From a bacterium (lineage in GTDB: Bacteria > Bacteroidota > Ignavibacteria > Ignavibacteriales > Melioribacteraceae): a DNA stretch of 38,314 nucleotides. Shown in pieces: positions 15,730 through 32,412 of the stretch. The translations under genes were made by a program, and so were the position numbers. Position 1 is the stretch's first letter. Each line of letters starts with the position of its first letter. The stretch is from assembly GCA_027398005.1 (NCBI GenBank), contig DAHYUM010000006.1, positions 1 through 38,314 of the forward strand, read 5' to 3'. The notes beneath the pieces were generated by a model. It was given only the letters and a program-made list of their open reading frames with translations, made no database searches and was not told the DNA's origin.

Positions 15730-18700
15730 TTATTTAACCACAATTTCATCTGCGGCAATAACGGCGTTTGTGCCGGCGTTGCGGTGCCAAGCGGGCAAAG
15801 TGCCCGTATTAACCGCAAACACCCTTATATAGCGCGCCTGTTTGTTAACGGTAAGGTTAAAATGCTTAACCCCCGCCGTTTCATCCTGTTTTATTTCATT
15901 CTTCTGTTCGGCGGCATTGGTAAAGTTTTTATTATCGTCCGAAACCATTACCTGCACCGAAACGGGGGGAAGTATTCTTCTCCCCTGGTTAATAAGAAAG
16001 TCAACGTCAACCTTTGCAACGTTCCTTATTTGCCCAAGGTCAAGCGCAACATCCATATTATCCTTGTTAAAGCTCTGCCACCCCCTGTTCCCCCTTTCGG
16101 GCGAGGCTTTAACCATATCTATAAGCATATTTTCCCAATCGCCCCATCTCTGCGCGGGCATTGTATTATAGCTTATAGAAACAACGGGCAGCGATTTGCT
16201 GTAAAGCCCTGTTCCAACGGCACTTAAAATCTTACCCTCTTCAAGCGCAACAGCATTAATCATACAGCTTTCATTAATTGTAAAAGGCCCGGTATAAAGT
16301 TTGGAGGAGGTGGTAGGGGTAGAGCCGTTGGTAGTATAATAAATTATGGCGTTCAGGCCGGCGCTTATTACAACCGTTTCGGGGGTATTGCCAATATATG
16401 CCTTCTGTGGAACAACAATAGGCTGTGCGCTTGCCTCAAAGCGGGTAAAGTTGATATTGTTTCTAACAATATCATCCGAAAGGTTCTGCGCCGGAACTGT
16501 ATTGTCGTTATCGTTCAATGCGGCGGTAAGGGCAAAAATCCTTATTCTGCCGTTATCGGGGAGTGTAATTTCCGTCGCGTTTTCCGGAAGGTCAATTTTA
16601 TACTTGAACATATAGCCGTAAATATAAGGCTCGTTTTCGCCATCCCTAAAATGGCGGTGAGTTGTAAAGTATCCTATATCATCCTTCTTAAGGTATCCGG
16701 GGGTAAGGCCTGTATAAACCACATCGGGCCTGTCGAAGTTGGTTTCTTCGGGTGTGGCGTTTTTCCAGTTGCGGCGGTCCCACTGCCCAATAAAGCCCGA
16801 CCAGTATTGAACGGGGATGCTGATTTCCTTTCCGTTAACCTTAAAAGTGGCGTTGTTAAGTCTGTCGGATGAAGCGGCAAGAATATAAAGCTTATTATAT
16901 CCGGCTGGTATTTTAATTGTCTGCCCTGCGCATGCAACGGCGTTGTTCATTCCGTCTGCCTTGGGGCCCAATTTAAACTGAACGTCGTCTGCGGTAATAA
17001 CATCAGGCAGAAGTTCGGCCGGGTAAGTTTTTCCGTTTTCCCCCATATCGCCGTCCGCTTTATGCGCGTCGTAGCTTATAACGTCGGCGTTATAAGGCAG
17101 TTCAACAAAAGCGTTCTTAACCGGCGCAAGTTTCACATCCGATGGATTAAGTGTAAGAGAAAAAGTCTTAAGCCTGTAGGGCTCGGCGTCAAATTCAAGT
17201 TTTCCGCCCCTTACATTAGCGGTTCCCAAATCGAGTTCCTGGCCGTTAACTTCCTTTGCCGATGCAATTTCGCCGGCGAAGGAAACTTTAACGCCGTTAA
17301 CCTGTTTTCCCGTGGTTTCAACAAAGCGGGCAATAATGTTATCGCCGTTTTCGGCTTTCTTTAAAGCGGTTAAAACAACATCGTTATTATTAATTTTAAC
17401 GAACGAGAATTCCCTGCCGAGCTTTCCATCGTGCTTAGCCGCCTGGAACGCTACAAGAGGCTGGTTAACCCTTAAAGCCTGCGCGTTCGAATTCCCTTTA
17501 CGCCAGTCCCCTTTATGTCCGTATAATGCGTAAAGCATTTCGTGATGCCCGAACTCCTGAACAGCCTGGTCGGAGTATCCTCCTCTTGTGCCCGGAGTGT
17601 AAAGGAGCGTTAAGCGCACGGTGCTGTCGTCCGGTTTATCCGAGCCGTACTTGCAGTCGTCAATAACCGAAACGCCGTAACTGCCGCTCTTATCGGTAAG
17701 GTCGAACCATTGATGTGCCGGCACTTCGAATTTAAGCGAATCGTTCGTGCCTCTTTCAATTGTGCCTACGCCAAGGTTATAAGTAGCGTTGTAATTCTTA
17801 ACCGTAAGGGGGAATGTGGCTTTTAATGATGTTTCCTTGGTAGCCCAGTCAATCTGCGTGTTGAATTCAACTCTATCGCAGGCACCGCCGGCATTAAGGC
17901 GCACCTGTTCAACAAATTTTGAATTGCGCGCTTCCCTTTCAACTTCAAGAGCAATACGCGCCGGACCGTTTTCAACAATTTTAATTTTAGCGGGACCTTC
18001 AACATATCCGGTTGGAGGGTTTTTCCTGTCGGCCCAGTCCATGTTCCATGCCGGATAATCCTGCGGCCTTTCATATTGGAACGCCAGTTTAACAGGAGCC
18101 GAAAGAAGTTCTTTTTTGGCCTGCTTATCGTAAATGCTTGTAATGTTGCCGTCGCTGCCAACCTTAACAAGATATTTTCCGTTTTCAAGAGAGGATTGTG
18201 TAATCTTCAATCCGGTTGACATTTTTGATGGTTTATCCGAAGGGCGGACGTCGAATGTAGTGTAGCTAACCGAAGGGGTCTTTGCAAGGAATACAACCGT
18301 TACCTTATTCCCCTCCGTTTTAACAATCTGCGAAGGCACTTCGTCGTTTTCGGCATTGTAAACTTTTACATATTCCGGAGCTTTATCGAACAGTACCGAT
18401 GCTTCAACGCAGTCTTCCCTTTCGAATGAAAGAGGGTTGAACACCACAACAGGCATTCCTTTAACTTCGGTATTCATTCCCCTAACAACCGCGCCCGATG
18501 CGTCCGCGAATATAGAGCCGAACTGGTTGGCGGCAATAAGCTCGTCGTTCCATGCAAAATCGTATGCGCGGGGGATGCTTGTGCCGGGCAGAATATCGTG
18601 GAACTGCGAACCGAGAACGAGGCGCCATGCTTCGTTCATCTTTGCGCGGTTATAATTTTCGCCCCCAAGCCATTCTCCCATAACCGAAGAGGCTTCGGCT

Positions 18701-19671
18701 TTGTATGCAAGAAGTTCGTTCTTCCTATTCATCCTTTTCATAAATCCAGCCGAGGTAATTGAACCGGCGGAGTGGTTCGTCAAAAGGAATTCGCCTTTAT
18801 AAACCGGCAGTTTATCTTTAAGCGCCGGGGTAATATCGTCAAACATTTCGGCCGTGGTAGAGAATAATATTTTTACCTTTCCTTCATCCTTAATGCTCTT
18901 ATCCACCCACATAACCGATTCCTCTGCGGGCGCGCCACCGACGTCTCCGGTTCCGAAATACATATATTCGGCCCCTACGCCGTATTTATTCAATGCATCC
19001 GTTACTCTTTTCATCCACTCGGAATTATTCAAATCGGCTCTTACTCTGGTAGTATAACTGCCCGGGTTTAAAGCCGCAACAACGGATTGCCCGTCTACAC
19101 CAACCCATTTACCAACGCTGAAGGGAATGCCAACCGATGAGCCCCATGTAAGTTTCTGTGTTGAAAAACCTTTTATGCCGCAGTGTGCCAGAATAGAAGG
19201 AAGAGATTCGAGATACCCGAAACAATCGGGCAGAATGAATTCGTTGCTTGTAACGCCGAATTCTTTTCTGAAATAATCGCTGCCCAATAGAATCTGCCTA
19301 ATCATCGATTCGAACGAAGGGGCAAGAACGTCGTTCTCTTCCATTGAAGAGCCCGCCGGAAACCAGTTCCCCTTTGCAATATACTTCTTAACCTTTTCAA
19401 ATTCGGCAGGGTAATATTCTTTCATCATCATGTAGCGGTCGGCGCCGCTGAAATTGAAAATATAATCGGGATATTTTTCGAACAGCCTGAAATTATCGGC
19501 CATAGTATTCCAGATATATTCATTAATAGTAGTCTGATAATCCCACCGCCATTCGGTATCGAGGTGCGCATAGCCTATTGTATAAAGCACGGGCACTTTT
19601 GCAAGGTCGTACTTCTGCGCGTTTACCGTAACGGCAATGAGGAACAAAAACAGGAGTAATGCTTTTTTCAT
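15730..19671 (-). CDS. GH38 alpha-mannosidase-like enzyme, secreted, with chitobiase-like and F5/8C-like C-terminal modules
   Basis: YAHLDTEWRWDYQTT, PDCFGYLESLPSIL, FHDILPGTSI motifs; C-terminal YYTTNGSTPTTSSKLYTGPF (chitobiase-like) and discoidin-like end (ARYIRVFAVNTGTLPAWH...ADEIVVK). Confidence 0.9.
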   Translation of the reverse strand: MKKALLLFLFLIAVTVNAQKYDLAKVPVLYTIGYAHLDTEWRWDYQTTINEYIWNTMADNFRLFEKYPDYIFNFSGADRYMMMKEYYPAEFEKVKKYIAKGNWFPAGSSMEENDVLAPSFESMIRQILLGSDYFRKEFGVTSNEFILPDCFGYLESLPSILAHCGIKGFSTQKLTWGSSVGIPFSVGKWVGVDGQSVVAALNPGSYTTRVRADLNNSEWMKRVTDALNKYGVGAEYMYFGTGDVGGAPAEESVMWVDKSIKDEGKVKILFSTTAEMFDDITPALKDKLPVYKGEFLLTNHSAGSITSAGFMKRMNRKNELLAYKAEASSVMGEWLGGENYNRAKMNEAWRLVLGSQFHDILPGTSIPRAYDFAWNDELIAANQFGSIFADASGAVVRGMNTEVKGMPVVVFNPLSFEREDCVEASVLFDKAPEYVKVYNAENDEVPSQIVKTEGNKVTVVFLAKTPSVSYTTFDVRPSDKPSKMSTGLKITQSSLENGKYLVKVGSDGNITSIYDKQAKKELLSAPVKLAFQYERPQDYPAWNMDWADRKNPPTGYVEGPAKIKIVENGPARIALEVEREARNSKFVEQVRLNAGGACDRVEFNTQIDWATKETSLKATFPLTVKNYNATYNLGVGTIERGTNDSLKFEVPAHQWFDLTDKSGSYGVSVIDDCKYGSDKPDDSTVRLTLLYTPGTRGGYSDQAVQEFGHHEMLYALYGHKGDWRKGNSNAQALRVNQPLVAFQAAKHDGKLGREFSFVKINNNDVVLTALKKAENGDNIIARFVETTGKQVNGVKVSFAGEIASAKEVNGQELDLGTANVRGGKLEFDAEPYRLKTFSLTLNPSDVKLAPVKNAFVELPYNADVISYDAHKADGDMGENGKTYPAELLPDVITADDVQFKLGPKADGMNNAVACAGQTIKIPAGYNKLYILAASSDRLNNATFKVNGKEISIPVQYWSGFIGQWDRRNWKNATPEETNFDRPDVVYTGLTPGYLKKDDIGYFTTHRHFRDGENEPYIYGYMFKYKIDLPENATEITLPDNGRIRIFALTAALNDNDNTVPAQNLSDDIVRNNINFTRFEASAQPIVVPQKAYIGNTPETVVISAGLNAIIYYTTNGSTPTTSSKLYTGPFTINESCMINAVALEEGKILSAVGTGLYSKSLPVVSISYNTMPAQRWGDWENMLIDMVKASPERGNRGWQSFNKDNMDVALDLGQIRNVAKVDVDFLINQGRRILPPVSVQVMVSDDNKNFTNAAEQKNEIKQDETAGVKHFNLTVNKQARYIRVFAVNTGTLPAWHRNAGTNAVIAADEIVVK

Positions 19672-19718
19672 TTTATTCCCTCGGTATTTATTATTAATTG
19701 ATTGTACGGCATATCAAG

Positions 19719-19740
19719 AGCCGGGCATTAAAGCCCGGCT
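19719..19740 (-). terminator. Hairpin AGCCGGGC-ATTAAA-GCCCGGCT between GH3 and GH38 genes (possible attenuator or terminator)
   Basis: Perfect 8-bp GC-rich stem; only a weak T-tract on the minus strand, so termination may be partial. Confidence 0.5.
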
Positions 19741-19754
19741 TTAAATAAATATAA

Positions 19755-22349
19755 TTATTCAACTGTTAATTTAACTGTTTTTAAATCTTTATCCGCCGAA
19801 GAAGAGCCGGTCATTAATTCATATACACGCTTTTCAACCGTAAAACCCTCCTTATCCTTATAAATAGAAAGCATCTCGGGGGTAATGCGGAATTTTACTG
19901 TCATTGTCTGGTTCGGATTTAAAGTAATTTTTTCAAATCCCTTTAAGCTCTTAACGGCGTCGTTTTCAGCCGTCCCTTTTCCTTTAACATAAAGCTGTAC
20001 CACTTCGCTTCCTTTAACTTTACCCTTATTGGCTACATCCACATAAAGCCAAACCGGTTCCCCCTCTTTTATTTTATCCTTTTCGAGGCGGGCATTGCCG
20101 AATTCGAAATTTGTGTAGCTCAATCCGTATCCGAAGGGATAAAGCACATCGCCGGTAAAGTAACGGTATGTTCTTTCCTTCATTCCGTAATCGGTAAAAG
20201 CGGGCACCTGCGAAATTGATTTATAGAAAGTAACCGGAAGTTTACCGCTCGGGTTATAATCGCCCAACAGAACATCGGCAATAGCATCGCCTGCGGCCTG
20301 CCCCGGGTACCATGCTTCAACAATGGCGGGTATATTATCGTTTGCCCAGTTGATTGAAAGCGCGCTTCCATTTAAAAGCACAAGCACAACGGGTTTGCCT
20401 GCCGCCGCAATTTTTTTAATAAGGTTTTCCTGCGTATCGGGCAGGTCAAGCGAAGTGCGGTCGCCCCCGGCAAAACCTTTAACCTTAACATTCATTTCCT
20501 CCCCTTCAAGGCGGGGCGAAAGCCCCATAAACATCACAACGGCGTCGGCATTCTTAACTGCGGCAAGTGCGCGTTCTTCAAGCCCTTCGGCAGGCGGAGC
20601 CCAAACAAACTGCATGAACGAACTGCGCATTGAACCGGTGTATTCTATTTTTACCTTGTAAGGTTTTCCTTTTTCCAGGTCAACAAATTTGTATGCTTTC
20701 GAAGCTTCATGTTCGCTGAAGAATTTAACCAGCAGCGAATCTTCAAAATAAATTTTAAATCCGTCAAGGCCGTATCCGCCGATTGCATAGCGCCCCGATT
20801 TTCCGGGTACTATATAACCGCTCCAACGAGCCGCAAAAACGCCACCGGCATTGTTTTTAACGGGCGATTTAGTCCACCAGTTAAAATCAATCTGCCTGTC
20901 AATTCTCTTAAGCGCCGGCTCCCCTTTGAAATCCTTATTATCGAAATACTCGGCATTGAATCCGTGTTTCTTAAGGTCGGGCGAAGTGAAAATTGCCGTT
21001 TCCCCTACAGTCTCAAAAGCGGGGATTCCATCCGCAAGGTCGCATCCTCTTTCATAAACAATTTGAGCCCTGGGCAGTTTGTTTTTTAAACCCTGCAGAG
21101 GAGTAACCGGATGCGAAGCATAACCGTTGTAATTGCCGTAGAGAATTTCAATATCGTTGGCATTCGGGCCAATTACGGCAATGTTCTTAATGCTTTTCTT
21201 AAGGGGAAGAGTATTGCCCGCATTTTTAAGAAGCACAATCGATTCCCTTGCGGCTTTGAGCGCCATCTGTTTGTTCTCTTTCGAATCGAGCCTGGATAAA
21301 CCGTATTTGTTAAATGGCACCATCCCTTCGGGATCGAACTGCCCTAATTTCATTCTTGCGGTAAAAAGCCTCTTCAAGGGAAGGTCCAGCTCTTTCTCTG
21401 TTATAAGCCCCTGTTTAACTGCGCTTACAAGGGAGGGGAAAGAGTTGCCGCATTCAAGGTCGGAGCCGGCTTTAACCGCCATAGCCGAGGCTTCCTCTTT
21501 TGTAGGCACTATTTTATGGGTCTGGTAAATATCGGCTACAGCCCAGCAGTCCGTTACAACATATCCTTTAAAATTCCATTCGTTGCGCAGGACCTGCTGT
21601 AAAAGCTCGTTGCTTCCGCAGCAGGCGTAATCGCGGAAACGGTTGTAAGCGCACATTACCGAATAAACCCCCGCATCCTGAACTAAAGTCTTAAATGCCG
21701 GCAGGTATGTTTCCCTCAAATCATATTCGCTTACATTGGCGTTGAATACATGCCTGTCGGGTTCGGGACCGCTGTGCACTGCAAAATGCTTGGCGGTAGC
21801 AATAACCTTAAGGTATTTCGGATCGTTTCCCTGCATTCCTTTTACGAACTGCATTCCAATCTGCCCCGTAAGGTAGGGGTCTTCTCCGTAGGTCTCCTGT
21901 CCGCGCCCCCATCTCGGATCGCGGAATATATTAATATTAGGGGACCAGAATGTAAGTCCCTGATAAATACCATGCTTGTTATGTTTAATTGCGTCGTTAT
22001 ATTTAGCGCGCGCTTCATCCGAAATTGTATTGGCAACATAGTAGATAAGATCCCGGTTCCATGTAGCGCCCAATCCAATAGCCTGCGGAAAGACAGTAGC
22101 AAGGCCGTTGCGTGCAACGCCGTGCAATGCCTCGTTCCACCAGTTGTATTCCGGAATGCCGAGGCGCGGAATAGCTTTGGCTGTATAAACCATCTGGCTT
22201 ACTTTCTCTTCGAGGGTCATTCTGCCTACAAGGTCTGCCGCCCTCTCTTCGAATGAATATTTTGTATCGAGGTATTTCGGCTTATCCTGCGCATGAAGCG
22301 ATACAAAGAGGATAAGGAATAAAAAAATCATTTTAATGTTAGTTTTCAT
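19755..22349 (-). CDS. GH3 glycoside hydrolase (beta-xylosidase/beta-glucosidase type) with PA14 insert and FnIII-like C-terminus
   Basis: Signal peptide; GVARNGLATVFPQAIGLGATWN; nucleophile region YVVTDCWAVADI; PA14-like (AARWSGYIVPGKSGRYAIGGYGLDGFKIYFEDSLL); GDYNPSGKLPVTFY; PFGYGLSYTNFEF. Confidence 0.93.
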   Translation of the reverse strand: MKTNIKMIFLFLILFVSLHAQDKPKYLDTKYSFEERAADLVGRMTLEEKVSQMVYTAKAIPRLGIPEYNWWNEALHGVARNGLATVFPQAIGLGATWNRDLIYYVANTISDEARAKYNDAIKHNKHGIYQGLTFWSPNINIFRDPRWGRGQETYGEDPYLTGQIGMQFVKGMQGNDPKYLKVIATAKHFAVHSGPEPDRHVFNANVSEYDLRETYLPAFKTLVQDAGVYSVMCAYNRFRDYACCGSNELLQQVLRNEWNFKGYVVTDCWAVADIYQTHKIVPTKEEASAMAVKAGSDLECGNSFPSLVSAVKQGLITEKELDLPLKRLFTARMKLGQFDPEGMVPFNKYGLSRLDSKENKQMALKAARESIVLLKNAGNTLPLKKSIKNIAVIGPNANDIEILYGNYNGYASHPVTPLQGLKNKLPRAQIVYERGCDLADGIPAFETVGETAIFTSPDLKKHGFNAEYFDNKDFKGEPALKRIDRQIDFNWWTKSPVKNNAGGVFAARWSGYIVPGKSGRYAIGGYGLDGFKIYFEDSLLVKFFSEHEASKAYKFVDLEKGKPYKVKIEYTGSMRSSFMQFVWAPPAEGLEERALAAVKNADAVVMFMGLSPRLEGEEMNVKVKGFAGGDRTSLDLPDTQENLIKKIAAAGKPVVLVLLNGSALSINWANDNIPAIVEAWYPGQAAGDAIADVLLGDYNPSGKLPVTFYKSISQVPAFTDYGMKERTYRYFTGDVLYPFGYGLSYTNFEFGNARLEKDKIKEGEPVWLYVDVANKGKVKGSEVVQLYVKGKGTAENDAVKSLKGFEKITLNPNQTMTVKFRITPEMLSIYKDKEGFTVEKRVYELMTGSSSADKDLKTVKLTVE

Positions 22350-22369
22350 TTTCTCCCTCTGAATTAATT

Positions 22370-24841
22370 TTATTCAAGAGTAAATGTTTTTTTCAGTTTA
22401 ATGTCTTTGGAACTGCTGCCGATAAGCACTTCAAATGCGCCCGGCTCGGCAACCCAGTTATGAACAGCCGGATTGTAGAAAGAGAGCTCATCTTTGCCTA
22501 TGTTAATTTTAACCTGCCTGGTCTCCCCCGGTTTAAGATATACTTTCGCAAATCCTTTCAGCTCCTTGTAAGGGCGGGGCAGGCTTGCTTCAACATCGTG
22601 CAGGTAAAGCTCTACAATTTCCTTGCCCGCCATTTTGCCGGTGTTCTTAACATCAACAGTAACTGTCAGTTTCTGCCCCGGTTTAATTTTGGATGAACTG
22701 AGCTTTATATTGCTGTAAGAAAATGTGGTGTATGAGAGGCCGTACCCGAATGGGAAGAGAGGCTCAACATTATTTTTTTCGTATCCGCGGTACCCTACAA
22801 AAATGCCCTCCTTGTAAGTGACCTTCAAATCTTTGTCATCATCGTAATAGCTGTTGTAAACGGGATTATCCTCCCATTTCTTCTCGAAGGTTACGGGCAG
22901 TTTGCCTGAAGGATTTGTTTTGCCGGCAATAATTTCGGCAAGGGCTACAGCACCCGACTGCCCCGGATACCATGAGTGAATGAGAGCGGGTACTTTATCA
23001 ATCCATTCCGCAATACCGGCATTCCCCCCGGCGTTGAGCACTACTATTGTGTTCTTATTTACCTTAGCTACAGCATCAAGCAGTTCAACCTGTTCTTTCG
23101 GGAGAGAGAAAGGACGGTCGAACCCTTCCCCTTCAGTCTCGTGATTGAAACCGATACAAAGAATTACAGCATCGGAATTTTTTGCAAGTTTAACTGCTTC
23201 ATCAAGCGGATCCCCGTCGGTAAGAGGCCCGTATCCAAAACGGATTGATGCGTCCCCCCCTGCCTGGTAATATTCAAGCACTATGTTATATTCCTGCCCC
23301 GCATTAAGAGTGGTCTGGTAAACATCGGTAAGTTCGGCATGGTCTTCCCATTTATCAATAACTTTTACTCCGTCAATAAAGAGCCTAAATCCGTCATCGC
23401 CGCTTACTGCTATTCTGTATTTGCCATCCTTTTCCGGTTTTATCTTACCCGTAAAGCGTGCCGAGAAATTCTGGTTTTCAAATCCATCTGCAAGGGGACG
23501 CGCAAAGGAAAGATTTATCGATTTGAAACTGCGCGTCAACGCGGGCATCCCTTCAAGGTTTTTGTTCTTATAAAATTCCCCTTTAGCCCCGTCTCCTTCA
23601 AAAACCGTATTCCTGAAGAATGCGGGGGATATTTTCTGAATTACACCCGGTGCGAAATTAACCTCGCATCCGGCAATCTGTTTAACCGCTTCGAAATAAG
23701 AAACGGGGTTTAAAGGATTAACGTAACCGCTGCCCCCTCCCCCTGCGTTAACGGGGTCGCCGTTGGGGCCTATTACTGCTATTCTCTTTAGCTTCTTCAT
23801 ATTAAGGGGAAGAATGTGCCTGCTGTTTTTAAGCAGAACAATACCGCCGCGGGCGGCTTCAATAGCGATATTGTTCGCGGCTTCAAGGTCGGGGGTATAT
23901 TTCTGGTGTATCTTAGTCGAATCCATAAATCCGAAACGGAAATACATTCTTAAAATTCTTCTTATTTTATCGTTCAGCACATCTTCTTTTATCTTCCCGT
24001 TTTGAACCGATTCGGTAATCAGTTCAGGATTCATAAATTTTCCCGAAGGCATTTCAAGGTCGAGGCCGTGGTTTGCGGCGTTAATGCCGTCGTATGTAGA
24101 ACCCCAGTCCGACATGACAAATCCTTTGAATCCCCACATTTTTTTGAGTACCTGGTTGAGAAGATAATCGTTTTCCGAAGCGTGAATACCGTTAACCGGA
24201 TTGTAGGAATTCATTACCGATGCGACTTTCCCCTCCTGAACTGAAGCCTTGAAAGCGGGGAAATAAATTTCATTCAGAGTGCGTTCGTCAACTTCGCTGT
24301 CAACCCTGTGCCTGTCATATTCCTGGTTGTTTGCGGCGAAATGTTTTGCGGTAGCCATAACATCCTGGCTCTGCACCCCCTGAATGTAAGCCGAAGCAAT
24401 TTTACCCGCGAGAAAAGGATCCTCGCCGAGATACTCAAAATTCCTTCCGCACATGGGGGCCCTGTAAATGTTCATTGCAGGCGCAAGCATAATCTGCACA
24501 TCTTTTCCCTTTGCCTCTTTGCCGACCGATACGCCCACTTTTTTCATCAGGTCGGTATCGAATGACGAAGTAATTAATATAGCCGCGGGGTAAGCAGTTG
24601 AAGGGCCGTAATTACGCACGCCGGCGGGGCCGTCGGCCATACGTACAAGAGGAATACCGAGCCTCTTGAGAGGCCTGATATCAAACCCCTGATATCCGCC
24701 AATCATTTCGGCTTTTTCCCGAAGCGTCATTTTGCTTATTATTGCGTCAATCTTTTTTTCATCTGCATTGCCCGAATCCTTTTTCTGGCAGAAGACCGGA
24801 GAAGCAATTAGAAGCAAAGCAATTATGATTTTAAATTTCAT
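22370..24841 (-). CDS. GH3 beta-glucosidase-like enzyme with PA14 insert
   Basis: Signal peptide; GFVMSDWGSTYDGINAANHGLDLEMP; PA14-like (FSARFTGKIKPEKDGKYRIAVSGDDGFRLFIDGVKVID); GKTNPSGKLPVTFEKKWED; PFGYGLSYTTFSY. Confidence 0.94.
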   Translation of the reverse strand: MKFKIIIALLLIASPVFCQKKDSGNADEKKIDAIISKMTLREKAEMIGGYQGFDIRPLKRLGIPLVRMADGPAGVRNYGPSTAYPAAILITSSFDTDLMKKVGVSVGKEAKGKDVQIMLAPAMNIYRAPMCGRNFEYLGEDPFLAGKIASAYIQGVQSQDVMATAKHFAANNQEYDRHRVDSEVDERTLNEIYFPAFKASVQEGKVASVMNSYNPVNGIHASENDYLLNQVLKKMWGFKGFVMSDWGSTYDGINAANHGLDLEMPSGKFMNPELITESVQNGKIKEDVLNDKIRRILRMYFRFGFMDSTKIHQKYTPDLEAANNIAIEAARGGIVLLKNSRHILPLNMKKLKRIAVIGPNGDPVNAGGGGSGYVNPLNPVSYFEAVKQIAGCEVNFAPGVIQKISPAFFRNTVFEGDGAKGEFYKNKNLEGMPALTRSFKSINLSFARPLADGFENQNFSARFTGKIKPEKDGKYRIAVSGDDGFRLFIDGVKVIDKWEDHAELTDVYQTTLNAGQEYNIVLEYYQAGGDASIRFGYGPLTDGDPLDEAVKLAKNSDAVILCIGFNHETEGEGFDRPFSLPKEQVELLDAVAKVNKNTIVVLNAGGNAGIAEWIDKVPALIHSWYPGQSGAVALAEIIAGKTNPSGKLPVTFEKKWEDNPVYNSYYDDDKDLKVTYKEGIFVGYRGYEKNNVEPLFPFGYGLSYTTFSYSNIKLSSSKIKPGQKLTVTVDVKNTGKMAGKEIVELYLHDVEASLPRPYKELKGFAKVYLKPGETRQVKINIGKDELSFYNPAVHNWVAEPGAFEVLIGSSSKDIKLKKTFTLE

Positions 24842-24893: not shown

Positions 24894-27452
24894 TTAATTT
24901 AAATCGTATTCTTTCAGTCCCGCGTCTATATAGCGGTTCCCGTCGGTCCATTTGCAGTGAATTGCAATTACATTGTTCCCCTTTCTAAGAAACTGCTTTG
25001 CCGTACCGCCCAGTTTGAGCGTAGTATAGTTTGAACACGCGCCCGAGTAACTGCCCAACAATTTCCCGTTCAAATAAATTTCCGCATCGTCATTCCAGTT
25101 AACAATAAGCGCAAGCCCTTTATCCGAAGGGTTAATGCAGTTGAATGTATTGCGTATATATATATCGGTTGTAAGCCATTCGGTATTTGTGTTGAAATAC
25201 CCTTTGGGTCCGAAACCGGCAGGCCCTTTATCCCAGTCCGAATCGTTGAATTCGGTGTTCATCCAGCCATCGGCAGGCTTAACGGTTGTATAGGTCCAAT
25301 CAATCTTCTCTTCTCTGGCAGTCGGAAGAATAGTCTTTCCGAACTTGAGAAATTTTAAGGGAGCCCATTCCCCTGTAACGTCGGTTCCTTTAGCGGACCA
25401 TTTTTTCCAAAGATTCTTTTCAGTAAGCATTTTCATGAAGAAGCCGCCTACAACCGAGCGTGCCTGGAAACCAACCTGATATGCGTTATCGGTTATATAC
25501 CAGTCCGATAGCGGAACGCGGTTCGGTGTCCTATCGGCAAATTTGTAAACGGGATTAAATAATGCCTTAAAATCATTCATATTATAAGCCAGCGAGGCGG
25601 TCCATGTAATCCAGTCGTTTTTGGTATATCGCTGGCGGCTGTCCAAAGGCAGACCGAATTGCGCCTGCTGTTTCTTGTAGAAAGAAATTTCCTTATCTAT
25701 TACGCTCTTAGGGAAAAGATTAAGCCCGAGAACTTTATCCCATATGATATTATATTTCTGGCTCCAGGTGCCGGGGCGGTCAAACGCCAGTTTGGTATGG
25801 TCTCCGTCGGCGGCCTGTTTAATCCACTCCTTAACCATAGCTTCTGCTTTAGAGCGGAATTCTTTTGCTTTATCTTTCATCCCGAGCATATCGCACAGCA
25901 TAGAATAGGAACCGATAGCCACAATAGCTTTAGCCGAAAGATTAATGTTATGCGCAAGGTGTCCTGCAAAGTCATCGGTGCAAAGCTGGTTTTCCGGGTC
26001 GAACCCTTTCGATAAAAGATACCCGGCCCATTTTTCAAGCACGCTCCAGTTATCTTTTGCAAAACCGGCATTGCCTTCAACCTTTGCAAGGGCGGCCATC
26101 ATAATAACCATATTGCCTGTTTCTTCAACGGGCATCTGGTCTTCCTCGGTTTCCTCGCCGCCGCCGTAAACCTGTCCCGTAGCATAAGGATAGGTGCCCA
26201 AATCGTGAGGCGCGAATGCGAATTTCCATTTCGGCGAAGCGGAATAATCGAGAAGAGGTTTAAGCATTGCTTTTGTAAGGGCGGGACTGAATAAAAAGAA
26301 TAACGGGCTTGCGGGATAAATAACATCAACCGTAGCAATACATCCATTGCTGAAATTTTCCTTTGCGAATATAAGGGGTTTGCCGTTGGCATCGGCGGCA
26401 AGCTTATGCGCGGCAAGGCTCTGCCTGTAAGCAAGGGCGCACATTTGGGCATATTCACTTCCCCCCGCCGCGGTTAAATCTTTCATTAATCCGGAATCGA
26501 ATTTTTCGCATTCGCTTTTAATCTTTGGGTATTCATCCGATGCTTTAACAAGGAGCTGTTCCATATCCATTCCGTTTCTGCGCCACCATGGACGCAAATC
26601 GGTATCGAAATAACGGATGCTGTAAATATCGTCGTATCCTACCATTACCGTACGGGCTTCGCTTTTGCTGCCTACCTTACCCAAATCCATTGAATAAGAC
26701 ATTGCGAAAAACCGGTCGTTAACTTTGCGCGGCTGCGGGGCATCGTTCGGACGGGTGATTTTACCGCTTTTAATAAATTCATTCTGAAGCGCATCTTTTG
26801 CGTCCACCGCCGAAACAATCCCTTCTTTGGAAGGAGCCGCAAGATAAGCATATCCCCAGTCGATGCGCAGGTTATCGCCGCTCTTGCCCAATATCTGCTG
26901 GCTCCGGGTTCCAACGCGCATTACATTCAATCCGGCAACAGAAGGATAATCCCATACTATCTGCTGGTCGGTTGTGTTAACTGCAATTTCGCTGCTTACA
27001 TCGAAATAGAGCTGAACATCGTGTTTCCGGCCGTCATTCGATTTCACGTCCCATTCAACATAGGTAACCGGCCTAGACATGATATCGAGGTCGGAAGGAA
27101 GGAGAGGGGAAATGAACGAAAGCTTCAGCGAAACCATTTCATTTCTAAATTCATATATTGAGCTTGTAGGAAGCACTTTAAGCGATACCTGAGTAAGAGG
27201 CTTAAGGTAGCTGGGACTGCTTCCCATAATCCTGTAGGCATTGCCGTCAATTCTAATTATGCAGTGCATCGGATGGTTTGTTCCGGTCCAGTGAACCGTT
27301 TCGCGGTCCCATAAATTATTCGAAGGGGACCAGATGCTGAAATAGGGATCGTGAGTAACAAGGGGAACCGAAGGGGGGCGGAACTGGCCCGCCTGCTGTG
27401 CGAAAATGGAGCCGCACAGCAGAAGAGCAATTAATGTCAATTTCAATTTCAT
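24894..27452 (-). CDS. DUF5127/DUF4965/DUF1793 'glutaminase A'-like secreted protein with C-terminal galactose-binding-like domain
   Basis: Likely start MKLKLTLIALLLCGSIFAQQ (27452; ORF-track start 27476 adds MINFKEEI). 'RPPSVPLVTHDPYFSIWSPSNNLWDRETVHWTG', 'CALAYRQSLAAHKLA', 'FSPALTKAMLKPLLDYSASPKWKFAFAPHDLGTYPYATGQVYGGGEETEEDQMPVEETGNMVIM' are characteristic of this family. Confidence 0.85.
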   Translation of the reverse strand: MKLKLTLIALLLCGSIFAQQAGQFRPPSVPLVTHDPYFSIWSPSNNLWDRETVHWTGTNHPMHCIIRIDGNAYRIMGSSPSYLKPLTQVSLKVLPTSSIYEFRNEMVSLKLSFISPLLPSDLDIMSRPVTYVEWDVKSNDGRKHDVQLYFDVSSEIAVNTTDQQIVWDYPSVAGLNVMRVGTRSQQILGKSGDNLRIDWGYAYLAAPSKEGIVSAVDAKDALQNEFIKSGKITRPNDAPQPRKVNDRFFAMSYSMDLGKVGSKSEARTVMVGYDDIYSIRYFDTDLRPWWRRNGMDMEQLLVKASDEYPKIKSECEKFDSGLMKDLTAAGGSEYAQMCALAYRQSLAAHKLAADANGKPLIFAKENFSNGCIATVDVIYPASPLFFLFSPALTKAMLKPLLDYSASPKWKFAFAPHDLGTYPYATGQVYGGGEETEEDQMPVEETGNMVIMMAALAKVEGNAGFAKDNWSVLEKWAGYLLSKGFDPENQLCTDDFAGHLAHNINLSAKAIVAIGSYSMLCDMLGMKDKAKEFRSKAEAMVKEWIKQAADGDHTKLAFDRPGTWSQKYNIIWDKVLGLNLFPKSVIDKEISFYKKQQAQFGLPLDSRQRYTKNDWITWTASLAYNMNDFKALFNPVYKFADRTPNRVPLSDWYITDNAYQVGFQARSVVGGFFMKMLTEKNLWKKWSAKGTDVTGEWAPLKFLKFGKTILPTAREEKIDWTYTTVKPADGWMNTEFNDSDWDKGPAGFGPKGYFNTNTEWLTTDIYIRNTFNCINPSDKGLALIVNWNDDAEIYLNGKLLGSYSGACSNYTTLKLGGTAKQFLRKGNNVIAIHCKWTDGNRYIDAGLKEYDLN

Positions 27453-27481
27453 AATTTCCTCTTTAAAATTTATCATTCAAA

Positions 27482-29757
27482 CTAATTGGTCTTAATTAAA
27501 ACAACGCCGTGCGAAGGAATCATCGCTTTAAATTCATTTTTAAACGAGCCGAGATTCTTTTGCCGCCACAGGTCGCGCAGTTTAACATTATCATTAATTC
27601 CCGCATCGCCGAAATTAAGCGTAAACGATTCGCTGTTTTTGCCCAGGTTGAAGATTCCGAATGCGAATGTTCCGTCGGCAAGTTTTTTCTTCCACACCTG
27701 AATGTCTCCCTTCTTAATTACAGGCACGGCCTGGCTGCCCAGCGGATCCTGATCGAGAGCAAGCACTTCATCGTTGGTTAAAAGATTAAGGGTAAAATCA
27801 TCCAGTCTGGTTAAATCGCATCCTATTAATAAAGGAGCAGAAAGCAGAGACCAAAGTGTTATATGAGTGTATTGTTCATCGGGTGTAAGTCTAGTAGGGT
27901 GCAGGCTGGGCCCCCAACCAACCCATCCAACAACAAGCATATCGGGGTCGTTCCAGTGCCCCGGTTTTGCAAAAGGTGCGTTTTCAATCTGCGAGAATCC
28001 AATTCCGCTCATGCTTTCCCATGTATCGGTAATATCGCCGGTTGTGCGCCATAAATTGCCGTCAACCGATGCGCCCCATTCACAAACTTTGCTCATTCCG
28101 TATTGGCATAAACTGTAAACAATATCCCTGTCAATTTTCTTTAATGCGTCCTGCATAACCGTGTAAGGCTTAATCCTTTATGCGCGTGTTGTATCTTTTG
28201 CAATTCCGTCGTAAGAACACCAGTCGTATTTAAGATAATCCACGCCCCATTTGGCATACGACTGCGCGTCCTGAAGTTCGTGCTGATACGAAGCAGTATA
28301 GCCGCCGCATGTTAAAGGTCCGGGGGAAGAATAAATGCCGAATTTAAGTCCGAGGGCGTGAATGCTGTCCCCCAATGCTTTCATATTAGGGAATTTCTCA
28401 TTTACAATTATATTTCCCTGTGCGTCTCTTTTAGGCGCAGTTGATTTGCCCGGAATTTCCCATCCGTCATCTATATTAATATATGTCCAACCATGCCTTG
28501 CAAGTCCCTTTTGTGCGTACACTTTAGCCGAAGCCACAACTTTATCCTGGTCAACAGTAAGCCCCAGCAGTTCCAGCTGTTCCATCCCATAGGAGGAGTA
28601 AGGGCAAGAAGAGTGCCAATTACAAATTTGATATTTTCCTTTGCGGAGCCGAGCTTGTTTTTAACAATAAGGGTAACGTTATATTCCCCTTCATCTTTAA
28701 CGGAACCGGAGATGATTCCCTTCTTCGGGTCAACAGTAAGACCCGCGGGGAGATTTACAGCTTCATAGTTAAGGGGTTCGTTTCCAGTAGCGGCAATTTT
28801 ATAAAGGAATGGTTTGCCGGCTCTTTCGCCGTAAACTTTAGCCCCATTAATTCTCGGTTTTGCCGATGGTTTAGGGGTAAGGATGTATGGGGTCTCTTCG
28901 CGTAAGGACATAGTTTCATTAACGCCGTCGAATTTAAATGTATAATCGACGTAGTTAGCCTGGTCCTGATTTTTAATTTCCACCGAAGAATTTATTTTCT
29001 GCCCCGGTTTAAGAACCACGTGCATCTGTTTGTTGTAAGTTACTTTACCGGTCAGTTTATTTTCGGCTTTAACCGAAAACAGTCCCTTAAGTGTACTTTT
29101 ATCGTAGGTATTCCGGATGCTGAAATTCTTTTTAATGGAATTCTTTTTATACTCGAAAGGGAATTTGGCAATATCGAGGGAGATATATTCGCTTACATTA
29201 GCCATTCCCACGTACTGGTTGCCGGTATAAATGCCCCCCTGGCCACCTTCATCGTAAACCCTAACGGCAATAACATTTTCCTTATCCCACATAATAGCCG
29301 GGTTATCGGCGCCGATTGTATAGCGCCTGTTATAATCCCATAAATTAGTAGGGGCATTAATAAATTCCTTATTCGGAAAGGTGCCGGCCTTAACGTTTTT
29401 ACCGTTTATGCCAATAAGCGTTCCGTTAAGAAATGTCTGGTCGAAGTTATTAATTTTCCCCAAAAAGATTTTAAGACTGTCCTTTAAGTAAGCATTATTC
29501 TTAAGGGAAGAGGGGATAAAAATTTTAACTCGGTACCAGGCATAACCGTCGTATGGGTCGTACCCCTGTTCCTCCCAAATCTTATTCACGCCGATTAATT
29601 TCCAGGCCGAGTCGTCGAATCCGGGTTTAGCATAATCGAGATTATCCCCCTGAATGAATTTCCAGGAAACGGGGAATTTAATATCGCCGCTCTGTGCTTT
29701 TAAAGCGCACAGCGAAACGAAGAAAAGTAAAACTGACAGATGAATGATTTTCCTCAT
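27482..29757 (-). pseudogene. GH27 alpha-galactosidase with N-terminal beta-sandwich and putative Ig-like domain, interrupted by a 1-nt frameshift (~28562-28565) and an in-frame TAA (28178-28180)
   Basis: Three consecutive ORFs (29757-28471, 28585-28178, 28156-27482) together form a continuous GH27: ALTPPMGWNSWNCWG | LTVDQDKVVASAKVYAQKGLARHGWTYINIDDGWE...YLKYDWCSY...A * RIKPYTVMQDALKK...PGHWNDPDMLVVGWVGWG. Adding one G restores an uninterrupted length of 2277 nt (759 codons) apart from the TAA. Confidence 0.88.
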
Positions 29758-29778: not shown

Positions 29779-32412
29779 TTAATTATTAATAAGTAATTCA
29801 TAATAAGGCCTGAACATAGGTTTATCTTTCTGAACGCGGTTAATCATATCAAGAATAACTTTTCTATCCGAGTTGAACTGCGTAAGAATTTTAGCGGCTT
29901 CTTTAGGCTCGCGCGAAAGGAACAATCCGGTTTGCGAGGATTTGATGATAATACCGCTGTTAGTATCGCCGTCGTTCCAGTTGGACTGGTCCCAGAAGGC
30001 TTTAACGCCTGCAAGGAATTTTACGAACGAATAGAGCCTTTTAAATTCACCCGCTTTGGCGTTGAGCAGGTTTTCATCGGAGGCGGGCAATGTAATTTCG
30101 AATACATATTTGCCGGCCACATTTTCTTTTGGAGTAAGTATTTTAACAGTCAGCTTATCGCCGTCATAAACCCATTCCCCTGTTTTTAATTCTGCGCCCT
30201 GTTTGAATGCCTTACCGTTTAGCTTAACCGATTCTGGGGGGAAAGAGTTAACAAGCCTAAGTTCATAATACCTGTTCCTAACCATTCCGGGGTAATTCCC
30301 TTCGGCGGGATGAACTGTTACAATAAGCTTATTCCCCTTTCTTTCCTGATCTACTTTAATGAAAGCATATTTCCCTTTCTTAAAATCCTGATTGTTTCCT
30401 TCGTCCTCGTACAATTTAGCGCTGCCGCTCCTGCCCGGAAAAACCGTGAATATGGTTCTATCCACTTTTTGTTCGAGATTTTTTACTTGCGGCTGCATTG
30501 GAATTATAGCCCCGGCCTTAACATAAACCGGAATTTCATCAATTGTAAATGCCCTTTTAACAATCCTGCCCCCATCAAGCATTGCTCCGGTAGCCCATTC
30601 AATCCATTGTCCTTCGGGGAGCCAGGTGGATTGATAAGTAAACAGGCTGTCTTTGCCAACCGGTTTTGTAACGGGGTTTACAATCATATCGTTACCGTAG
30701 AAATATTCGTTGCGGAATGCATAAGCTTCTTCGTTACGGGGGTATTCATAATACAGGGGTTTGCAGAGCGATATGCCGTCGTCGTAGGATTCGCGGGCGG
30801 CTGTATAGATATAAGGAACTATAGAATAGCGGAAATCTATAAGGTCGCGCATCATAAAGAAGTATTCGGACGGATATTCCCAAATTTTTCTTTTAATTCC
30901 GGGATCGTGAGTTGCGTGAGTTTTAAGCAGAGGGCTGAACACGCCGAACTGGAACCATCTTGTAAGAAGTTCCGGGTCATTATCCTGATTGAGATGATGC
31001 CCTCCGATATCGTGTCCCCAGAAACCGAAGCCCACATTAGCTGCGGTAGTAGTAAAGTAGGGCTGATAATCGAGGCTGGCCCAGGAAATTTTAGTATCGC
31101 CCGAAAAGCCGATTTGATAGCGGTGATTGCCAAGGCCGCCCCAGCGGTGATAAATAAATGGACGGGCTCCGTTCCTTCTTTCCATATCGCTGAAATGAAC
31201 ATAGTTCAAATAAAATGTAGGGTTAACGCCCGGAATGGTGGTAGTGGACCACTGCTGCCAGTCGAGCCACCAGAAATCAATTCCCATTTTTTCCATTGGA
31301 TGAAGCATAATTTTAAAATAATTTTTGGCGTATTCCTTATTGGTTATATCGAACGGAATATATTTTTTAGTGGCGGGGTCTATTCCCATAGCCTTAGCCA
31401 TTTCGGGATATTTTTCCTCGTGCGGCTGAATGCCCGAAGCGGGGTGGATATTAAGGCACATCTTTAAGTCTTTTGCCTTTTTCCAGTTCAGCAGGTCCTG
31501 CGGAAATGGAAAATAATTTTTATCCCATGTAAATCCGGTCCAGCCTATAGGCTGTCCGGCCTGGTCTTTAATTCTCTTTCCATCCTTAAAAAATTCCTTT
31601 TCACTGGTAAGATGCCAGTCCATATCAATAACAAAAACATCGAGTGGTATATTAAGGCTTTCGAAAGTATTTTCAATTTCCATCACTTCTTTCTGCGTAT
31701 AAGGCCAATATCTTGAATACCAGTAGCCGAATATAAACTTAGGCGGAAGCGCAATCTTTCCGGCAGTTTCGGTAAAATCCTTCATTGCCTGTTTGTAGTT
31801 GTAGCCGTAGCCGAAGAAATAGAGGTCCTGATATTTTTTATCGGGACGCGCTGTAACCCAGGGCCAGTCGGAATTATCGAACAACGGTTTCTGTGAATCA
31901 TCCACCATATACCAACCGTCGCGCGAAATAATTCCCTCTTCGAGCTTTAATTTAGTGGAAGGGTCCTTCGGATTTGAATATTCGCCGTCGGTGCCGTCAA
32001 GGGTTCTTCTTGTGCCGAGAAGGTTCCCCTTATTTTCGTCCCCGAATTTCCAAATCTTATGTTCGCTCCCCAGATTAAATTCAACCTGCAGGTTAGATGG
32101 AGTGAACATTCCGCTGTCCGTTTTATAGCGGAGCTTTAATTCGTCCGTAGCAATTTCAATCCATCCCTCTTTTTCCGATTTAGTAAACTTCGGAACGGGA
32201 AGTTTCCTGTTAACGAATGTAAGTGAAGCCCTGTCTTCGAATTTCCCGTCTTCGCTCCATTCCATTCTTATAACGCGCGGGGTAAGGATAGTAAAGCGGG
32301 CGTTGCCCTGAACTACGACCGCTTTCGGATCGGCAACAGAATTGTATTTCTGTGCTGAAGTGAAAGAGGCCGCAAATAAAATTAGTGCCGCCGTAAATAA
32401 TTTCAATTTCAT
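29779..32412 (-). CDS. GH31 family glycosidase (alpha-xylosidase/alpha-glucosidase-like), secreted
   Basis: FGYWYSRYWPYTQKEVMEIENTFESLNIPLDVFVIDMDWH; GIDFWWLDWQQW; HRWGGLGNHRYQIGFSGDTKISWASLDYQPYFTTTAANVGFGFWGHDIGGH; C-terminal DUF5110-like region. Confidence 0.93.
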   Translation of the reverse strand: MKLKLFTAALILFAASFTSAQKYNSVADPKAVVVQGNARFTILTPRVIRMEWSEDGKFEDRASLTFVNRKLPVPKFTKSEKEGWIEIATDELKLRYKTDSGMFTPSNLQVEFNLGSEHKIWKFGDENKGNLLGTRRTLDGTDGEYSNPKDPSTKLKLEEGIISRDGWYMVDDSQKPLFDNSDWPWVTARPDKKYQDLYFFGYGYNYKQAMKDFTETAGKIALPPKFIFGYWYSRYWPYTQKEVMEIENTFESLNIPLDVFVIDMDWHLTSEKEFFKDGKRIKDQAGQPIGWTGFTWDKNYFPFPQDLLNWKKAKDLKMCLNIHPASGIQPHEEKYPEMAKAMGIDPATKKYIPFDITNKEYAKNYFKIMLHPMEKMGIDFWWLDWQQWSTTTIPGVNPTFYLNYVHFSDMERRNGARPFIYHRWGGLGNHRYQIGFSGDTKISWASLDYQPYFTTTAANVGFGFWGHDIGGHHLNQDNDPELLTRWFQFGVFSPLLKTHATHDPGIKRKIWEYPSEYFFMMRDLIDFRYSIVPYIYTAARESYDDGISLCKPLYYEYPRNEEAYAFRNEYFYGNDMIVNPVTKPVGKDSLFTYQSTWLPEGQWIEWATGAMLDGGRIVKRAFTIDEIPVYVKAGAIIPMQPQVKNLEQKVDRTIFTVFPGRSGSAKLYEDEGNNQDFKKGKYAFIKVDQERKGNKLIVTVHPAEGNYPGMVRNRYYELRLVNSFPPESVKLNGKAFKQGAELKTGEWVYDGDKLTVKILTPKENVAGKYVFEITLPASDENLLNAKAGEFKRLYSFVKFLAGVKAFWDQSNWNDGDTNSGIIIKSSQTGLFLSREPKEAAKILTQFNSDRKVILDMINRVQKDKPMFRPYYELLINN

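Follow-up and report, generated by a model that had tools for sequence, protein, structure and literature searches.

Two frame lesions in a GH27 alpha-galactosidase gene of a draft Melioribacteraceae genome, and the error background of the assembly

The locus described here raises the question whether a secreted GH27 alpha-galactosidase-like gene, which carries a one-base deletion and an in-frame TAA, is broken in the organism or only in its assembly. The window (the whole stretch of 38,314 nucleotides that was analysed) corresponds to contig C304 of a draft genome (G000) that comprises 2.93 Mb in 337 contigs, 87.6% complete and with an estimated contamination of 2.7%. It is probably a short-read assembly, judging from an N-run and from its very short contigs, many of them of 500–1300 bases.

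The interrupted gene and its neighbours

The gene lies on the minus strand at 27482..29757 and would have about 758 codons if read through. Its parts are a signal peptide, a sugar-binding-like N-terminal part, a He_PIG Ig domain, a Melibiase_2 barrel and Melibiase_C. A single ORF for the complete GH27 enzyme is absent owing to a frameshift at 28562–28565 and a TAA at 28178–28180. The first ORF (28471..29757, minus strand, 428 aa) holds the N-terminal domains, He_PIG, the initial residues of the GH27 barrel and an out-of-frame tail. A downstream open frame with an internal ATG start (27482..28156, minus strand, 224 aa) holds the second half of the barrel and the C-terminal domain; its product is unable to fold as a whole barrel.

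The frameshift site is a GGGG run (28562..28565, minus strand) with one base fewer than in the homologues, reading TGG GG- CTT against W-G-L. Frame 0 reaches PMGWNSWNCW at this run, and homology resumes one base off as LTVDQDKV. The TAA (28178..28180, minus strand; TTA on the plus strand) follows in the direction of reading, and the translation continues in the same frame across it (...DYLKYDWCSYDGIAKDTTRA-*-RIKPYTVMQDALKKIDRDIVYSLCQ...). A fifth-order Markov model of codon positions, with the same genome as training set, changed frame at the GGGG run and then kept one frame through the TAA. It gave one coding frame on both sides of the stop, with scores of +15.3 over the 150 bases upstream and +9.2 downstream, while the remaining frames scored −27.9 or worse. 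In a Pfam profile search with X placed at the stop, Melibiase_2 (158.5 bits, curated cut-off 23) and Melibiase_C (62.5 bits, cut-off 22.9) formed a single continuous match spanning the TAA. The initial annotation had reported the stop with its same-frame continuation and had counted it as the second of two independent lesions in a GH27 gene that is otherwise well preserved. Translation, the Markov model, Pfam and an alignment of about 90 homologues confirmed the former, and the GGGG deletion together with the TAA bears out the latter. The lesions are not a chance reading, for intact homologues can be aligned over the full length of the flanks.

A third anomaly falls within the same 480 bases. 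It is a TGT (Cys) at 28082..28084 (minus strand), 94 bases downstream of the stop, where at least 93% of the homologues have Trp. Like other GH27 alpha-galactosidases (PF16499 and PF17801; e.g. PDB 6f4c, 1uas, 4ogz), the translated gene shows a continuous match over barrel and C-terminal domain and the KYD and RTTGD motifs; it differs from them in the one-base deletion, the TAA and the replacement of a near-invariant Trp by Cys. Alignment with solved alpha-galactosidases showed the catalytic motifs retained as WGVDYLKYD and WRTTGDI. We take KYD and RTTGD to be the carriers of the catalytic acids (nucleophile and acid/base; KYD, RxxxD), as in characterised GH27 enzymes.

The gene is part of a glycoside-hydrolase cluster in the order GH38, GH3, GH3, GtaA-like, GH27, GH31. 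The intact neighbours, all on the minus strand, are a GH38 alpha-mannosidase with two GH3 enzymes (15730..24841), a member of the DUF4964/DUF5127/GtaA six-hairpin family (24894..27476) and a GH31 enzyme (29779..32412). The GtaA-like and GH31 genes have open frames, with close homologues lacking. Adjoining genes for a TlpA-like protein, a LacI-type regulator and a sugar kinase, identified by reading the sequence, are also open. Elsewhere, a GH31-like stretch at G079:C5:80288-81691 was seen to contain four internal stops (one TGA, three TAA) and looks like a truly decayed gene.

Comparison with homologues and age of the lesions

In the alignment of about 90 homologues, Glu is the commonest residue at the column of the TAA (24 E, against 16 A, 11 S and 10 D). 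The nearest ortholog, in Melioribacter sp. MnB_16 of the GTDB collection (VEPI01000112.1, L012:4807-7083), reads DTSRVERIKPYTVMQDAL at the stop region with GAA at the TAA column, and in other near homologues this codon is GAA or GAG. From the Glu-rich column and these codons, a one-base change from a Glu codon to TAA is the simplest reading, which agrees with the single substitution proposed in the initial annotation and makes Glu the probable original codon. The MnB_16 ortholog has the same domain order and the same length (758 codons), and is 81% identical in the GH27 part and 59% in the N-terminal part. It differs in being open throughout and in its genomic neighbourhood. It and the other homologues are open at both lesion columns. 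Among the relatives searched, no further member of the genus was found.

Relative to the MnB_16 ortholog, with five outgroups, no rate acceleration was detected in any of three segments of the gene. Of 105 near-invariant GH27 columns, the only deviating one was the Trp-to-Cys site, and one deviation is the median of the homologues; there is thus no excess of damaged conserved sites. These two results together mean that constraint was normal until very recently, or still is. A very young inactivation would leave no rate signal. In the same genome an intact GH27 paralog, 60% identical and free of stops, is present at G000:C335:5102-6181. A second copy of the interrupted region was not found in the assembly.

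Lesions elsewhere in the assembly

The coding-frame scan covered 781 kb of the genome and looked for places where the coding signal runs on past a stop or a frame slip. Six convincing places were found outside the window gene, four in-frame stops and two frame slips, and these counts are lower bounds because the filter used (no nearby start codon) misses true cases, including both lesions of the window. The first of the four stops is a TAA at the second Ser of the KMSKS motif of ileS (L103:4018, G000:C303, minus strand). It lies in the only ileS of the assembly, the sole match above the curated cut-off in a profile search of the genome; of 29 relatives, 27 have Ser at this position and two have Thr. 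Isoleucyl-tRNA synthetase is essential, and a cell without it cannot live. The ileS stop must therefore be false, or not be in every cell, or be suppressed, and it is a strong sign of false bases in the assembly. One TAA at a different position was also observed in ileS of another fragmented genome of the family (L295, G052:C320:4588-7746).

The other stops are a TAA in an amidase-like gene (L125:4374, G000:C264, minus strand) and a TGA in a gene for a protein with transmembrane domains resembling ABC-transporter membrane parts (L093:9040, G000:C337, minus strand), both open in relatives, and a TAG in a fliK-like gene (L107:7597, G000:C270). The frame slips are in a fliG-like gene at a poly-A run (L107:2413, G000:C270) and, by one base at a GG run, in a histidine kinase (L106:7285, G000:C280, minus strand). 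These five genes were named by reading the sequence. The fliG-like slip and the fliK-like TAG stand 5 kb apart on the same contig, and the histidine kinase slip is similar to the GH27 lesion. A further possible stop case, L105:7908, is not among the six. Candidates L194:14125 and L130:7727 were rejected as ordinary gene borders with TTG/GTG starts, and L125:15596 on account of a doubtful reading frame.

The same scan of 989 kb in three relatives (G008, complete, 400 kb; G007, 189 kb; G012, 400 kb) gave zero in-frame-stop candidates and three weak frame-slip candidates. A possible frame slip was noted at L188:3659 (G008:C1), in an apparent arginyl-tRNA synthetase gene of a single-contig genome.

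In every change that could be assigned, a G:C pair has become T:A: a Glu codon turned into TAA, the Trp codon TGG into TGT (Cys), and a Ser codon into TAA. The pattern consists of these three changes only, as the homologues for L093, L107 and L125 are too distant for assignment. G:C to T:A is the direction expected of oxidative damage artefacts (PMC12390751). Three changes are too few for an argument.

Assembly error as a probable explanation, and its rivals

As the origin of the GH27 lesions, consensus error comes slightly ahead of real recent inactivation, with a probability of about 0.52. Under this explanation the TAA would be a false base in a draft metagenome assembly, where the coding strand apparently reads T in place of G. 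It would lie in a region of poor read support that also lost one base from the G run. The lesions are in the sequence, the homologues are intact, and other broken genes, an indispensable one included, are in the assembly. A fatal lesion in ileS together with lesions elsewhere means that the assembly contains false lesions, and the two in GH27 are no better supported; error accordingly ranks at least level with pseudogenisation. We infer a shared error origin of both GH27 lesions, and also the type of damage. Further findings favour error: neither acceleration nor an excess of damaged conserved sites is seen, as expected of a still-functional GH27; lesions elsewhere, with an essential single-copy gene among them, exceed the level in the three relatives; and the base missing from GH27 lies beside a homopolymer. 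Internal stops serve as an established indicator of assembly error, influenced by assembler, platform and coverage; in drafts they often result from assembly and low coverage, and they track the overall assembly error (Cooley and Wright 2024, PMC11017572). The present assembly resembles the spurious pseudogenes described there in its scattered internal stops and frameshifts, here including an essential gene, but differs in that the error origin is here probable rather than proven.

What speaks against error is that two or three lesions fall within 480 bases of a single gene, and a dispensable one. Beyond the window, 742 kb contain about six convincing lesions; at that rate we estimate the chance that two strike a given gene at roughly 2 in 10,000. 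This clustering exceeds what the background predicts and is improbable unless errors cluster locally. Substitution errors are, moreover, usually rare in short-read assemblies.

Genuine recent inactivation, in which a frameshift and a nonsense substitution deprived the population, or its dominant strain, of this GH27 but spared the paralog and the rest of the cluster, falls somewhat short of even odds. Translation would then end within the barrel's first third, without yielding an active enzyme. Two disabling lesions and a radical Trp-to-Cys change clustered in one gene are in its favour, as are the dispensability of GH27, the presence of an intact paralog and the open frames of all cluster neighbours. 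It is weakened by the equally fatal lesion in the essential single-copy ileS, which means that the lesions of this assembly are not to be trusted at face value, and by the lack of a conserved-site excess. The locus resembles a recent bacterial pseudogene in that a dispensable gene, which has an intact paralog, carries two disabling lesions that are absent from orthologs, but no relaxed constraint is detectable here and the lesions themselves may be false. The initial annotation had read the locus as recent pseudogenisation within an intact operon. Its recency holds, no loss of constraint being seen, and so do the open neighbours; breakage in the organism is not established, and sequencing or assembly error had not been weighed, though the lesions in unrelated genes, ileS among them, demand that it be ranked at least level with pseudogenisation.

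There is a slim chance that mixed strains are responsible, the consensus having merged broken and intact alleles; some cells would then lack the lesions, or the two would sit on different chromosomes. The fragmented draft with its estimated contamination would allow for this, but no second copy of the region was found in the assembly.

Recoding or suppression, that is, read-through of the stop with programmed frameshifting upstream to give a full-length enzyme, is very unlikely; the initial annotation had called recoding possible but less likely. The frame does continue past the TAA with protein-level constraint retained downstream, but 141 of 209 long genes end in TAA, which makes it the usual stop, the interrupted genes carry all three stops (TAA, TAG, TGA), none of the 31 tRNAs found has the anticodon UUA, CUA or UCA (an incomplete tRNA set, the assembly being 87.6% complete), and the homologues have sense codons in the normal frame. 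No X XXY YYZ slippery heptamer was present in the needed register, and with the homologues in frame programmed frameshifting was rejected. Still more remote is the prospect that the stops in both ileS and GH27 are real and usefully read through to full-length proteins.

Before an apparent pseudogene within an intact operon of a draft metagenome-assembled genome is given a biological reading, the background of errors in that genome should be measured. Here a comparable lesion in one essential gene suffices to lower trust in all single-lesion pseudogene calls of the assembly. The finding is ordinary under either error or inactivation. If the lesions are real, they represent the ordinary loss of one of two GH27 enzymes. 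If consensus error is their origin, the organism would have an ordinary full-length secreted GH27 alpha-galactosidase within its glycoside-hydrolase cluster, and the intact enzyme would remove alpha-galactose residues from the glycan on which the cluster acts.
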